Shown piece after piece: positions 27,179 through 32,951 of a stretch of DNA of 34,832 bases. The notes beneath the pieces were generated by a model that worked only from the letters and a program-made list of their open reading frames with translations, was not told the DNA's origin and made no database searches. Location of the stretch: NCBI GenBank assembly GCA_030148905.1, contig JASBSO010000246.1:1-34832 (forward strand), read 5' to 3'. How positions within the stretch are numbered: position 1 is the first letter of the stretch; the number at the start of each line of letters is the position of its first letter. The stretch is from Kordiimonadaceae bacterium. Its GTDB lineage: Bacteria > Pseudomonadota > Alphaproteobacteria > Sphingomonadales > Kordiimonadaceae. A program made the translations under genes and the position numbers.

Positions 27179-27250
27179 GACGCCTTCCACGATGCGGCCT
27201 AATTGCAAATCACTCGCAATTACCAGATGCATATAGACAAGGTTTTTTTC

Positions 27251-29536
27251 ATGCTTTTCCCCCGTTTTCTCAGCAAATCCCTTCTTTTGTCGGGCACCGC
27301 ACTCTTTGCGCTCAGCAGCGCAGCCCTTTCCGACGACGGCGCAGCAGCGGCGCAGGATACAGCCAACCCGCGCACGCTGGACAGCGACTATTATGACGAC
27401 GACAATGTCGATACGATCGAGGTAGTGGGGCAATATCTGTACACAGACCGGGTCAACGCTTTGAAATCGCCTACACCGATTTTGGATGTGCCGCAGTCGC
27501 TGTCGATCACAACGGCGGAGCAGATCATCCGCCAGGGTTTTGACAGCATCGGTGATATTGTTCTCTATACACCCGGCGTCAACCAGTCGCAGGGTGAGGG
27601 CCACCGTGACGCGGTTGTGTTCCGCGGCGTGCGGTCAACGGCGGACTTTTTCATCGACGGGGTGCGCGACGACGTTCAGTATTACCGCTCGCTGTATAAC
27701 CTTGAGCAGGTGGAAATTCTGCGCGGGCCGAACGCGCTGTTTTTCGGGCGCGGCGGCACCGGCGGGATTTTGAACCGGGTCACCAAAAAGGGCGTGATCG
27801 GCGAGGACTTTATCGGCTATCTGGGCGCGATTGACACTTTCGGTGCTGGCACCATTCAGCTAGACGGCAACTTCACCGCCAGCGATACGGTCGCCTTTCG
27901 GGTCAACGCTTTTTATGAACGGCTCAACAATCACCGCGATTTCTTCGACGGCGACCGCTTTGGGGTGAACCCAACGGCCTTTATTCAGCTGTCGCCGCGC
28001 ACGACGCTGAACCTGTCCTATGAATATGTGAACAACGAACGCTTTGTCGACCGCGGCATCCCGGCCGGGCCCGATGGCCGCCCGGCAGAAGCGCTGGAAG
28101 ACATCACCTTTGCCGACCCTGAACTGTCGACCGCGACGATCGACGCGCATATCGGCCGGGCGAATCTCAGCCACGAGTTCAGCGACACCATCAAGGGCAA
28201 TTTCAGCATCGCCTACAGCGATTTTGACAAGCTCTATTCCAACTTTTTCCCGGTCAGCTTTGACGCGGCGACCAATATTGTCGGCATTGACGGCTATATC
28301 GACACCACCCAGCGGCGCAGCCTGACCATCAGCTCCAACTTTGTGGCTGAATATGCGACCGGCAGCATCAACCATACCATTGTCACCGGCACCGAATATA
28401 TCGACACCGTCAACAACAATGACCGGTTCAATTCCTTTTTCGATCAGACGCAGGACGATGTGGAATTTTTCCTGGCAACGCGGCCGATCGATTTGAGCGG
28501 CGGCGTTGGGGTCAATGCCGCGGGCAATGTGACCACCAACAGCTTCACCACCGACCTGAACGACGACACCGAAGCCGATGTCACCGTGTTTTCGGCCTAT
28601 ATTCAGGACGAGATCGAAGTGGCGCCCTGGCTTGACCTGATCGTCGGGGTGCGGTTCGACAGTTTTGAAATCACCGTCGACAATATCGCCACCTTCATCG
28701 AAACCGGCCAAAGCGACATCACCAGCCGCACCGACGAGCAGTTTTCGCCCCGCCTTGGTTTTGTTTTGAAACCGCAGGAAAATATCTCTTTCTATGGCAG
28801 TTTCAGCGAGAGCTTTCTGCCCCGAAGCGGCGAGCAATTTGCCGACCTGCCCGACGACCCGGCCACCCCCGACGACGATACGCTCGACCCCAACACCTTC
28901 CAAAATCTGGAGGTGGGCCTGAAATGGGACATCGCCGACAGTGTCAGCTTGACCGCCGCGCTGTTTGAGATCGAGCAAAGCTCGCCGCAGGAAGCGCCGT
29001 CGATCATTGACCCGGTGACCGGGATCATCATCGACGACAATGCTGGCCAGCTGGTGGTTGTCGATTCGGAGATTCGCGGCTTTGAGGCGCAAATTCAGGG
29101 GCAGATCACTGACTTCTGGAGCATCTCTGCGGGCTATAGCTATCTCGACGGCGATCAGGTCGCCACCACCAATATCCTCAATGATGCGGGCGAGATTGTG
29201 GTTGCCCAGGGCGAGGAAAACGGCCTGCGCCTGCGCGAACTGCCCGAACATACGTTCAACATCTGGAACAATGTTCAGGTTACCGAAAAATTCGGCTTTG
29301 GCGTGGGGCTGACCTTTCAGGATGAAAGCTTTGCCGATGTCGGCAACCTCACCACGCTGCCGAGCTTTGTGCGCATCGATGCCGCCGCCTATTACGACCT
29401 GAGCGACAGCGTACGCCTTCAGGTCAATGTCGAAAACCTGACCGACATCGACTATTTCCCGAACGCGCACACCGCCAACAACATCACCGTCGGCGCGCCG
29501 CTGAATGCCCGTTTTACCATTTCGGGCCGCTTCTAG
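27251..29536 (+). CDS. TonB-dependent siderophore receptor
   Basis: 761 aa from ATG 27251, which follows AAGG and begins a clean signal peptide ('MLFPRFLSKSLLLSGTALFA'); TTG 27203 and ATG 27227 are in frame but lack a Shine-Dalgarno. It is an outer-membrane barrel that imports ferric siderophore using TonB energy. A TonB-box-like 'DTIEVVG' precedes the plug domain: 'VPQSLSITTAEQI', 'GDIVLYTPGVNQSQGEGHRDAVVFRG', 'FFIDGVRDDVQYYRSLYNLE', 'VEILRGPNALFFGRGGTGGILN'. This is the catecholate/Fiu-like siderophore subgroup. The C-terminus 'PLNARFTISGRF' ends in Phe, as needed for barrel assembly. A Fur-like box precedes it and a terminator follows. Confidence 0.95.
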   Translation: MLFPRFLSKSLLLSGTALFALSSAALSDDGAAAAQDTANPRTLDSDYYDDDNVDTIEVVGQYLYTDRVNALKSPTPILDVPQSLSITTAEQIIRQGFDSIGDIVLYTPGVNQSQGEGHRDAVVFRGVRSTADFFIDGVRDDVQYYRSLYNLEQVEILRGPNALFFGRGGTGGILNRVTKKGVIGEDFIGYLGAIDTFGAGTIQLDGNFTASDTVAFRVNAFYERLNNHRDFFDGDRFGVNPTAFIQLSPRTTLNLSYEYVNNERFVDRGIPAGPDGRPAEALEDITFADPELSTATIDAHIGRANLSHEFSDTIKGNFSIAYSDFDKLYSNFFPVSFDAATNIVGIDGYIDTTQRRSLTISSNFVAEYATGSINHTIVTGTEYIDTVNNNDRFNSFFDQTQDDVEFFLATRPIDLSGGVGVNAAGNVTTNSFTTDLNDDTEADVTVFSAYIQDEIEVAPWLDLIVGVRFDSFEITVDNIATFIETGQSDITSRTDEQFSPRLGFVLKPQENISFYGSFSESFLPRSGEQFADLPDDPATPDDDTLDPNTFQNLEVGLKWDIADSVSLTAALFEIEQSSPQEAPSIIDPVTGIIIDDNAGQLVVVDSEIRGFEAQIQGQITDFWSISAGYSYLDGDQVATTNILNDAGEIVVAQGEENGLRLRELPEHTFNIWNNVQVTEKFGFGVGLTFQDESFADVGNLTTLPSFVRIDAAAYYDLSDSVRLQVNVENLTDIDYFPNAHTANNITVGAPLNARFTISGRF

Positions 29537-29581
29537 CAGCAAATGAGACAGCCTGAAAACAGGCCAAAAAAATAGAGGGGT

Positions 29582-29618
29582 AGGGTCGTGCCAGTGATGG
29601 TGCGGCCCTTTAATTTTT
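29582..29618 (+). terminator. Terminator after the TonB receptor
   Basis: AGGGTCGTGCC (29582-29592) pairs with GGTGCGGCCCT (29599-29609), 11 bp with three G-U pairs and a 6-nt loop. TTTAATTTTT-type sequence follows. It lies 45 nt after the stop. Confidence 0.7.
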
Positions 29619-29635
29619 GAAGACGCCGTAATGGT

Positions 29636-30670
29636 TTAAAGACGAAGCGTCGCGCCGCTTTGGGTCACCACCGATACGGCCAGCTCGCCGTGTTCGGCCA
29701 TCACCGCCTTGATCGCATCCACCGGCATGGCGTGAAAGCCGGTGGACAGCGCGTCGGCTTCGGTGGCCGTTGGCGCTTCAACGGTTACCCTTTGATAATG
29801 GTGCGCAGGTGCGCCGGTTTTGGGGTCGAGCAGGTGATGATATTGGCCTGCCCGGTCATAGGCCCGGTCCTGCACCGAGGATGTGGCAACGGCACGCTCG
29901 GCAAGATGAATCGCTCCGGGTGCCACCGCATGCGCGTTGCCCGGCGCGGCAGGAACAGACCAGGCCTCGCCGCTTTGCTGCGCGCCCACCGCGGCATATT
30001 CCCCAAAGGCAATCAGCCCGTGACGAACCCCCATGGACGACAATCGCGCCTTAACCCGGTCAACAATATAGCCCTTGGCGATACCGCTCAGGGTCAATTG
30101 CACCCCGGGGCGCATGGTAGACACGCCTTGGCCCCCTATGCGTACGCGGTTGAACCCGACACGGCGTGTTGCGACCGCCACGTCTTCCGCCGCTGGCGGA
30201 GCACCGGTTTCGGCAAAGCTGCGATCATAGAGCGCCAAAAGCGGTGCAACCGTCGGGTCAAAGGCGCCGCCGGTCATGTCGGCCATATAGCCTGCGATTG
30301 ACAAGAGATTGAGAAAATCCGCAGGGGCATCGTCAACAAAGCCGTCGGTATTCAGCCGAGCAAGCGGTGCATCGTCATGCGCCGGATGCAACAGCGCTTC
30401 AAACGCGGCAAAGTCTGAATCGAGCGCCGCAAATACGGCGTCACATTCGTCCTTCCCCAACCCTTGCAGTGTAACCGTTGCGTCGACATCAAGCGCGCGG
30501 CGGTGCCAAACCCGTTCACCCGAGAGGGCTGTTGCCGCCCGCACGGGCTGAGCACCCAGCAGGGTTGCCCCCATAGCGGCGGGCCCCAGGACCGCAAGCC
30601 CAAGACCACCGCGCAACACCGCGCGGCGTGACAGGCTGGAACTGTGATGTTCTGTGGCAGACCTTCTCAT
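29636..30670 (-). CDS. apbE: FAD:protein FMN transferase, Tat-exported
   Basis: 344 aa from ATG 30670, with AAGGAG 6 nt upstream. ApbE-type enzymes attach FMN from FAD to a Thr/Ser of redox proteins in the periplasm. A twin-arginine signal is visible ('SRRAVLRGGLGLAVLGPAAM', mature from about residue 46). Family motifs follow: 'DPTVAPLLALYDRSF', 'LSGIAKGYIVDRV' and the metal-binding C-terminal region 'PTATEADALSTGFHAM'. No flavinylation-target protein lies in the window. It is the last of three minus-strand genes behind soxR and the 5-alpha-reductase-like gene, with a 72-nt gap and no terminator before it. Confidence 0.92.
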   Translation of the reverse strand: MRRSATEHHSSSLSRRAVLRGGLGLAVLGPAAMGATLLGAQPVRAATALSGERVWHRRALDVDATVTLQGLGKDECDAVFAALDSDFAAFEALLHPAHDDAPLARLNTDGFVDDAPADFLNLLSIAGYMADMTGGAFDPTVAPLLALYDRSFAETGAPPAAEDVAVATRRVGFNRVRIGGQGVSTMRPGVQLTLSGIAKGYIVDRVKARLSSMGVRHGLIAFGEYAAVGAQQSGEAWSVPAAPGNAHAVAPGAIHLAERAVATSSVQDRAYDRAGQYHHLLDPKTGAPAHHYQRVTVEAPTATEADALSTGFHAMPVDAIKAVMAEHGELAVSVVTQSGATLRL

Positions 30671-30742
30671 GGCGCGCTCCTTGCCGACATTTGCGGGCGA
30701 AAGCAACCAAATCTTTGTTACAATTTTGCGGCAGTCCGGCTG

Positions 30743-31514: not shown

Positions 31515-31988
31515 TCACGACCAGATACCCCGGCGTTTCGTGGGCGGGCCGTCCAACAGATAGCGCGCACCCGGTCCGGCGTCTTCGGCGCGGTCATCGG
31601 GGTTATACAGCGCGCACGACCGCAGGCTCAGACAGCCGCAACCAATACAGCCGTCCAGATGATCGCGCAGCCGCGACATCACGGTGATGCGGTCGTCCAA
31701 GATGCGGCGAAACCGGCGGCTGATCCGCATCCAGTCGGCCTTGGTGGGGGTGCGCCCCTCGGGCAGGCTCGCCAGTTGTGTGCGAATCTCCTTAAGGCTG
31801 AACCCAAGCTGTTGCGCGATGAGAATGAACGACAGGCGGCGAATGTCCGCCCGCACATAACGCCGCTGGCCGCCCGCGTTCCGGTGCGGGGTCAGCAGAC
31901 CCTTATCCTCATAAAAGCGGATCGCCGACACGCTGGCACCGGTGCGATTTGAAACCTCACCTATAGTTAAGATATCGCTCGATTTCAC
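31515..31988 (-). CDS. soxR: Redox-sensing MerR-family activator SoxR
   Basis: 157 aa starting at GTG 31988, with AAAGGA 8 nt upstream. The MerR winged helix is 'LTIGEVSNRTGASVSAIRFYEDKGLL' (residues about 7-32), and 'NAGGQRRYVRADIRRLSFI' follows. The 2Fe-2S cluster ligands C-X2-C-X-C-X5-C are present in 'CIGCGCLSLRSC'. SoxR is activated when redox-cycling compounds or superoxide oxidise the cluster. A SoxR box lies in the divergent promoter just upstream, so the direct target is likely the VOC gene, possibly along with soxR itself. The long C-terminal tail after the cluster is usual. Confidence 0.96.
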   Translation of the reverse strand: MKSSDILTIGEVSNRTGASVSAIRFYEDKGLLTPHRNAGGQRRYVRADIRRLSFILIAQQLGFSLKEIRTQLASLPEGRTPTKADWMRISRRFRRILDDRITVMSRLRDHLDGCIGCGCLSLRSCALYNPDDRAEDAGPGARYLLDGPPTKRRGIWS

Positions 31989-32016: not shown

Positions 32017-32047
32017 TTGACCTCAACTTAACTTGAGCTTGTAAAAA
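32017..32047 (+). promoter_or_regulatory. SoxR-activated promoter with SoxR box
   Basis: CCTCAACTTAACTTGAGC (32021-32038) differs from the E. coli soxS box (CCTCAAGTTAACTTGAGG) at two of 18 positions. It sits between TTGACC (-35, 32017-32022) and TAAAAA (-10, 32042-32047), a 19-bp spacer. That over-long spacer is the hallmark of MerR/SoxR-activated promoters. It points to the VOC gene at 32097. Confidence 0.88.
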
Positions 32048-32096: not shown

Positions 32097-32480
32097 ATGG
32101 CCCGCGTTGAACATGTGAACATCACCGTTAGCAACCCCGCTGCAACCGCACAGGTGCTTGAGGATATTTTCGGCTGGCACATCCGCTGGCAGGGGCATTC
32201 GGCACTGGGCGGCGATACCATCCATGTGGGCGAGGCGGGCACCGCAAGCTATGTGGCGGTTTACGGGCGCGAGGGGCGCGACGAAAGCAAAGCGCTGGCG
32301 CACAAAAAGGGCGCGCCGCTCAATCATATTGGCGTGGTGGTGGATGATCTGGATACCACCGAGGCCCGCGTGGAAGCGGCGGGGCTGAGCCCCTTCAGCC
32401 ACGGCGACTATGCGCCCGGGCGGCGGTTTTATTTTTTCGACCGCGACGGCATCGAATGGGAGGTGGTCAGCTATGACTGA
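32097..32480 (+). CDS. VOC-family (glyoxalase-fold) protein, SoxR target
   Basis: 127 aa, one vicinal-oxygen-chelate domain made of two beta-alpha-beta-beta-beta repeats. 'RVEHVNITVSN' and 'LNHIGVVVDDL' give the first strand and His of each repeat, and 'DGIEWEVVSYD' supplies the final Glu ligand. This ligand pattern fits glyoxalase I/fosfomycin-resistance-type metal sites, but the reaction is not determined. GAGGAGA precedes the ATG. It is the only plus-strand gene after the SoxR promoter, so it should respond to redox-active compounds; detoxification of such compounds is inferred. Confidence 0.9.
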   Translation: MARVEHVNITVSNPAATAQVLEDIFGWHIRWQGHSALGGDTIHVGEAGTASYVAVYGREGRDESKALAHKKGAPLNHIGVVVDDLDTTEARVEAAGLSPFSHGDYAPGRRFYFFDRDGIEWEVVSYD

Positions 32481-32579: not shown

Positions 32580-32630
32580 AACCAATTGGTTGACTTTTGA
32601 ATAGACACCGCTATAGTCAACCATATGGTT
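32580..32630 (+). promoter_or_regulatory. Promoter and twin operators of the ArsR-SRPBCC operon
   Basis: AACCAATTGGTTGACT (32580-32595) and AGTCAACCATATGGTT (32615-32630) form an inverted repeat matching at 14 of 16 positions. Each contains its own perfect 12-bp palindrome (AACCAATTGGTT, AACCATATGGTT). The -35 TTGACT (32590-32595) and -10 TATAGT (32612-32617) have a 16-bp spacer. One operator overlaps the -35, the other the transcription start and the ATG at 32625. The predicted start site falls at or next to that ATG, and there is no Shine-Dalgarno, so the mRNA is probably leaderless. Confidence 0.75.
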
Positions 32631-32951
32631 AACAATACTGATCCGCTTGATGATATCTTCAAGGCACTGGCCGACCCCACCCGGCGCGCCATGCTGGTGG
32701 CACTGAAGACCGGCGACCAGCCGATATCGACGCTTGCCGCCCCGCATAGCATGACGCTGGCGGGTGCATCCAAACATGTCGGCGTTTTGGAGGCCGCTGG
32801 CCTCGTGACCCGAGAACGGCAAGGCCGCACCCATATCATTTCGCTGCGCGCGGACCGCTTACGCGAGGCTGAAGACTGGCTGGAGGCCATGCGCGGCTTC
32901 TGGTCCGAGCGTTTGGATGCGCTTGAACGCGCCCTGAGTGAGGAGAGTTGA
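32625..32951 (+). CDS. ArsR-family transcriptional repressor
   Basis: 108 aa winged helix protein. 'DDIFKALADPTRRAMLVALK' is the typical N-terminus, 'TLAGASKHVGVLEAAGLVTR' the recognition helix, and 'RERQGRTHIISLRADRL' the wing. No Cys metal site of the ArsR/SmtB type is present, so it belongs to the metal-independent SdpR-like subgroup, often paired with an SRPBCC protein. It probably represses its own promoter through the two palindromes around its start. Its stop lies 1 nt before the next ATG. Confidence 0.92.
   Translation: MVNNTDPLDDIFKALADPTRRAMLVALKTGDQPISTLAAPHSMTLAGASKHVGVLEAAGLVTRERQGRTHIISLRADRLREAEDWLEAMRGFWSERLDALERALSEES

Follow-up and report, generated by a model that had tools for sequence, protein, structure and literature searches.

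In the window, by which we mean the whole 34,832-nucleotide stretch of DNA analysed, a gene for an ArsR/SmtB-type repressor and a gene for an AHSA1/SRPBCC protein very probably form an autorepressed operon whose mRNA begins without a leader at the start codon of arsR (Table 1). The positions of two palindromic sites, the fit of the promoter, the absence of a Shine–Dalgarno (SD) sequence before arsR, the conservation of this layout, a constraint on codon 2 and the nature of the partner gene can all be read directly from the DNA. From these features we infer with high confidence that ArsR would bind both sites and repress the operon, that the 5' end would fall at the start codon, and that the two genes would be translated unequally.

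Table 1. Coordinates of the arsR–AHSA1 operon and its start region in the window
Feature	Position	Strand	Basis
Distal operator (putative)	32580..32591	.	AACCAATTGGTT; sequence, pattern search, homologue copies
-35 hexamer TTGACT	32590..32595	+	10/12 promoter match; TTGAC over distal operator in 67/73 relatives
-10 hexamer TATAGT	32612..32617	+	promoter match; ends 7 nt before ATG
Proximal operator (putative)	32619..32630	.	AACCATATGGTT; sequence, pattern search, homologue copies
Predicted transcription start (leaderless)	32625 (within about 2 nt)	+	-10/ATG distance; haloarchaeal TATA-like box position
ArsR/SmtB-type repressor, 108 aa	32625..32951	+	NF033788, 67 bits (cut-off 55)
SD-like GAGGAG of second gene	32940..32945	+	sequence; within arsR 3' end
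AHSA1/SRPBCC protein, 181 aa	32953..33498	+	PF08327, 45.4 bits (cut-off 22.1)

The ATG at 32625 is the only plausible start of arsR, because an in-frame stop codon lies at -27, no ATG, GTG or TTG occurs between this stop and the ATG or in codons 2–15, and the ArsR model NF033788 aligns from residue 9 of the encoded protein. This model, HTH_20 (30.1 bits, cut-off 27) and fold matches assign the protein to the ArsR/SmtB family; its score with the SdpR autorepressor model NF033789 (55.3 bits) stays below the cut-off of 100. AlphaFold2 predicted a winged helix with high confidence (mean pLDDT 91.5); residues 1–4 score below 50. The closest solved ArsR structures, 3f6o, 2oqg (Rhodococcus RHA1) and 7r22 (M. 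abscessus Mab3862), have the same fold (3f6o: E 6.8e-31 by profile, VIA Z 14.3, rmsd 1.8 over 97; 2oqg: Z 14.6, rmsd 2.5 over 106). The protein contains no cysteine, so that a Cys-based metal site, and with it the class of Cys-based metalloregulators, can be excluded. With this single protein as the query, no viral relatives were found.

The second gene encodes a COG3832-type protein of the START superfamily. We chose the ATG one base past the arsR stop codon as its start; the list of open reading frames (ORFs) also offers a GTG at 32938. With its AHSA1 gene 1 nt behind arsR, the pair qualifies as an ArsR-COG3832 (AHSA1) module, a type that Makarova, Wolf and Koonin described in 2009 as toxin–antitoxin-like or, likelier, a resistance module (PMC2701414). 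Those modules consist of the same gene pair, and their ArsR subfamily likewise lacks metal motifs (PMC2701414). The pair Rv2035–Rv2034 of M. tuberculosis has been listed as another of this type (PMC3968373). Given a two-gene operon with sites that resemble autoregulatory operators, and given that COG3832–ArsR was put forward as a candidate in 2009 (PMC2701414), the locus could encode a toxin and its antitoxin. We consider this highly improbable: the same study favours antibiotic resistance over a bona fide toxin–antitoxin function, and the COG3832 protein of S. maltophilia was non-toxic in kill-rescue assays (PMC7650669).

Elsewhere in the window, a TonB-dependent receptor gene lies at 27203–30706, and after it, within the same interval, comes an ApbE-family gene in convergent orientation. 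A SoxR gene (31515–31988, minus strand; TIGR01950, 191 bits, cut-off 117) is separated from a divergent VOC/glyoxalase gene (32097–32480, plus strand) by a SoxR-box-like palindrome (32021–32038) with two mismatches to the SoxR-box consensus, where 0.01 such sites are expected. The VOC/glyoxalase gene may be a SoxR target.

The initial annotation had reported two perfect 12-bp AACC-N4-GGTT palindromes in front of and across the arsR start. Both are present, and the window contains no third. The distal palindrome ends on the first two bases of the -35 hexamer; the proximal one begins one base past the -10 hexamer and spans the start codon (palindrome bases 7–9) and codon 2. Their centres (32585.5 and 32624.5) are 39 bp apart, about 3.7 turns at 10.5 bp per turn, and not 35 bp as first stated. 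By chance 0.36 copies are expected in the 34.8-kb window, and 5 of 100 shuffles also reach two. The bare 12-mer shows hardly any enrichment in the 2.7-Mb genome as a whole, with 39 sites against 30 for a reversed control; the flanked form TNAAC-N6-GTTNA has 29 sites against 21, and five of these 29 are of the AACC-N4-GGTT type (the window pair, two in C137 and one in C149). These counts leave a wider regulon in this genome unsupported. Palindromes in one sequence alone are weak to modest evidence, and it is across relatives that the pattern goes far beyond chance.

For this comparison we used the best 80 of 550 named homologues, picked by protein and not by DNA. A palindrome copy was accepted when at least 7 of the 8 bases of AACC-N4-GGTT matched, and the distal copy was sought at 33–44 bp. 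Among these 80 loci, 78 carry the palindrome across the start codon at the same place, and 73 also have the distal copy, 38 (9 loci), 39 (28), 40 (32) or 41 bp (4) upstream. As a control, 330 places inside ORFs of the named loci and of 30 related loci yielded two matches at 7/8 and none at 8/8. Since the sequences are related, we did not use statistical (Fisher) tests as evidence. In fuller form the sites read ATTnAACC-N4-GGTTnAAT. The complete layout is also present on pSymA of S. meliloti 1021 (complement 106356–106652). A class scan with GGTTGAC-N15-40-AACCNNATGGTT found it in 14 of 385 genomes, and the reversed pattern in 0 of 385; judged by eye, 13 of the 14 layouts (window included) open an ArsR ORF, the exception being L043. 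Conservation is not general: of the 30 best-scoring loci from related genomes (window included), both sites are present in 17 and the ATG-spanning site in 18; the other 12, more distant relatives, lack the ATG-spanning site, which counts against the operon model proposed here.

Where the two sites do not occur together, the losses run in one direction. Eight loci keep the ATG-spanning site without a good distal one (L069 with 6/8, L084, L110, L124, L023, L131, L155 and L156). Not one of the 80 named loci has a distal site without the start-codon site, and L081 and L121 lack both. This asymmetry points to the start-codon operator as the core element of the pair. We also noticed a different arrangement among paralogues. 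In L026, L032 and L034 the ATG is flanked by two AAC-N6-GTT sites at a distance of 16 bp, and in L031 and the Nostoc locus L154 both sites precede the ATG, 15–16 bp apart. Judged from these sequences, the AAC-N6-GTT pairs appear to be a second start-region operator layout.

The promoter elements named in the initial annotation could be confirmed. TTGACT, a 16-nt spacer, TATAGT and 7 nt lead to the arsR ATG, which corresponds to a sigma70-type promoter with a 10/12 match. No AGGA, GGAG or GAGG occurs in the 20 nt before the ATG, in agreement with the reported absence of an SD sequence and as expected of a leaderless mRNA. These 20 nt consist of the end of the spacer, the -10 hexamer and the left operator half; the operator thus occupies the position of an SD sequence.

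We examined the conservation of this promoter in a profile of the 73 two-site loci, which omits seven of the 80 (L069, L081, L084, L110, L112, which is cut off, L121 and L124). Since palindrome positions chose these 73 loci, the conservation of the palindromes in the profile is partly circular; no such circularity affects the -10 element, the flanking ATTn, the GA of codon 3 or the SD result. Of the 73 loci, 67 have TTGAC overlapping the distal palindrome, five have TTGAA or TTGAT there, and one has neither. In 63 loci the best -10-like hexamer ends exactly 7 nt ahead of the start codon, and 58 of these match at least 4 of 6 consensus bases; it ends at another distance in three and was not found in seven. 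By this comparison the most likely transcription start is the ATG or a position no more than about 2 nt from it, as had been proposed. A very short leader, with a start 2–6 nt before the ATG, would make the mRNA SD-less rather than strictly leaderless and would leave the reading of the operators the same. The -10 hexamer does end 7 nt before the ATG, and position -2, an A in 80% of the 73 relatives, is another possible purine start. We nevertheless consider such a leader unlikely, given that the -10 distance is nearly fixed (63/73), that a ribosome site cannot fit, and that the acuR transcript, whose -10 and -35 elements have their centres 10 and 35 bp upstream of the start, begins exactly at the AUG (PMC3017554).

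A longer leader could arise if arsR were mainly read through from the upstream VOC gene, with the ATG-proximal promoter playing a minor part. That gene lies on the same strand at a distance of 144 nt, and no terminator was found before the arsR operon, so that read-through is possible. It is very unlikely to be the main source of the transcript: arsR has no SD sequence, and although the promoter/operator block is conserved, information does not exceed 0.13 bits at positions 11 nt or more upstream of the distal site.

The comparison also explains how far apart the operators lie. As one promoter hexamer is attached to each operator, the operator spacing equals the promoter spacer plus 23, a rule that is a matter of arithmetic wherever the -10 hexamer ends 7 nt before the start codon (63/73). 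Helical phase is consequently not what is conserved, and the earlier argument from helical turns fails: the spacing varies between 38 and 41 bp in bacterial relatives, is 35–36 bp in haloarchaeal ones and tracks the core promoter. A larger inverted repeat formed by the two sites (TGGTTGACT...AGTCAACCA) had also been proposed. It is present in the window, but its inner arm is unconserved; GTC precedes the proximal AACC in 0 of 73 relatives, which rules the repeat out as a conserved feature.

The proximal site leaves a mark on the coding sequence. Of the 80 named loci, 76 use GTT as codon 2, compared with 35 of 353 later valine codons in the same genes, and 72 of 78 have GAA or GAG as codon 3. 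The start triplet itself can vary, with GTG in L080 (Nocardia) and CTG in L109, and the palindrome is intact in both. The codon bias and the persistence of the palindrome when the start triplet changes indicate that a constraint at the DNA level reaches into the gene, where the constrained codons encode residues that are modelled as disordered in the ArsR protein of the window. Comparison with relatives thus bears out the proposal that operator and start codon share bases. For 77 of the 78 palindrome-bearing named loci we also searched for upstream starts: 26 have none in frame before a stop codon; the remaining 51 either contain one or have no closing stop in that frame, and their start rests on conservation.

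An SD-like tetramer precedes arsR in four of the 73 relatives versus the partner gene in 81 of 96 loci (nearest-start rule). The partner itself is a constant companion. In 96 of 97 loci (78 of the 80 named and 19 of the 30 related ones; in L026 the site lies away from the start codon) arsR is followed by an SRPBCC-like ORF within 1.5 kb. Its start is at most 34 nt from the arsR stop codon in 82 of the 96, and in the other 14 the best SRPBCC ORF is not adjacent and follows 370–1195 nt after arsR.

Plasmid-borne homologues of Halobacteria provide a comparison across domains. We inspected 23 loci, comprising 20 of the 31 haloarchaeal records listed and three more. The start-codon operator is present at 7 or 8 of 8 bases in 16 of them, including one broken gene. 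The 15 intact loci have a distal site (6 to 8 of 8 bases) 35–36 bp upstream; in L145, where a match at 48 bp scores equally well, the 35-bp site was assigned by eye. In 14 of these 15 the distal site continues into a TATA-like box located at about -31 to -25. TTAAATA or TTAAGTA was found by pattern at -31/-32 in ten and TTTAATAT by eye in four more; L143 has no clear box. An archaeal TATA box for a transcript that starts at the ATG is expected about 25–30 bp before it. In the broken gene (L150, with in-frame stops) the start-codon operator is intact and the distal copy still recognisable. In two more of the 23 loci, L152 and L153, the left half-site is weak.

Five further haloarchaeal loci (L146–L149 and L151) have AAGC-N4-GCTT as the distal site and match at the proximal site only in the right half (GCTT). 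Their recognition helix reads SQH, as opposed to SKH in the others. L146, L148 and L149 encode an identical protein, and the joint change of helix and site is probably a single event. All 78 palindrome-bearing named loci have K at this helix position (71 SKH, 7 AKH). We rejected residue 50 as a general code (SRH for AAC-N6-GTT, SKH for AACC), because the paralogues are mixed; the claim that residue and site correspond is therefore limited to the SQH/AAGC case.

Comparison with relatives makes ArsR itself the most likely reader of the palindromes, as had been suggested. Another regulator, for example a LysR-type protein, might in principle read them, as the PcaQ motif of S. meliloti (ATAACC-N4-GGTTAT) contains the same half-sites, AACC...GGTT (PMC3557286). 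This is scarcely probable, because the site pair tracks one ArsR subfamily across phyla and domains while fused to the start codon, and because site and ArsR recognition helix change together in one group.

On the basis of these comparisons, we propose that ArsR dimers would bind both AACC-N4-GGTT copies, the distal one fused to the -35 hexamer and the proximal one covering the transcription start together with the ATG and codon 2. The distal dimer would cover the -35 hexamer and the proximal dimer the start region, which should exclude RNA polymerase and result in autorepression. An inducer would free the promoter and give rise to an mRNA whose 5' end is the A of the AUG or lies no more than about 2 nt from it. 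From this mRNA arsR would be translated without an SD sequence, probably weakly, and AHSA1, with an SD sequence of its own, would be made well. The core promoter rather than helical phase would set the operator spacing. We lean, with some reservation, towards the broader view that the start-codon operator is a portable cassette, retained in bacteria and haloarchaea alike, that leaves the gene no leader, dictates codon 2 and limits the choice of codon 3, and that the core promoter between the two operators has been replaced across domains. Bacteria would combine it with TTGACA and a -10 element at an operator spacing of 38–41 bp, and haloarchaea with a TATA box at 35–36 bp. The promoter geometry of each domain would have been refitted, with the start staying at the same ATG inside the operator.

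The nearest precedent is AcuR, a TetR-family protein encoded in acuR-acuI-dddL of Rhodobacter sphaeroides, where 5' RACE placed the transcript start at the AUG (PMC3017554). This operon also begins with an autorepressor gene that lacks an SD sequence, is followed by genes that have one, and contains an inverted repeat that overlaps the promoter; related operons are said to be leaderless too (PMC3017554). Unlike the locus in the window, where two short ArsR operators occur and one of them lies across the ATG and codon 2, AcuR uses one inverted repeat with 8-bp arms over the promoter (PMC3017554). A translational acuR fusion reached about 7.5% of the acuI level (PMC3017554), and on this ground translation of the leaderless arsR is probably weak. 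The mRNAs of lambda cI and of tetR of Tn1721 (cited in PMC3017554) and of PY54 cI and cro (PMC4488713) likewise start at the AUG; these repressors belong to other families, and the passages on them in these two papers describe no start-codon operator. A transcription start map of Cupriavidus metallidurans includes an arsR, presumably the gene of an ars cluster, among its leaderless mRNAs, and the part of that report concerned describes no fusion of operator and start codon (PMC7563307). The published map for S. meliloti contains 171 leaderless starts, and its main text does not mention ArsR (PMC3616915). As for the ArsR-COG3832 modules, the account in PMC2701414 deals with their genes and spread, not with an operator, a promoter or a leaderless start. 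In the titles and abstract openings returned by searches of an open-licence library we found no ArsR operator across a start codon, and the sole match there to the literal operator sequence concerns a LysR protein. The gene pair and leaderless autorepressors are thus already known, and a conserved fusion of operator and start codon was not found in these searches.

This arrangement offers a specific explanation for the possible lack of a leader in some regulator genes, namely that an operator occupies the position of the ribosome site. A low output of repressor beside an SD-driven partner would follow from the leaderless state of arsR. The palindrome supplies a candidate operator for the widespread and poorly understood ArsR–AHSA1 gene pair, and it can be used to check the annotation of start sites in this family. 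Finally, one regulator cassette has seemingly been adapted to two kinds of core promoter, sigma70 and archaeal TATA.
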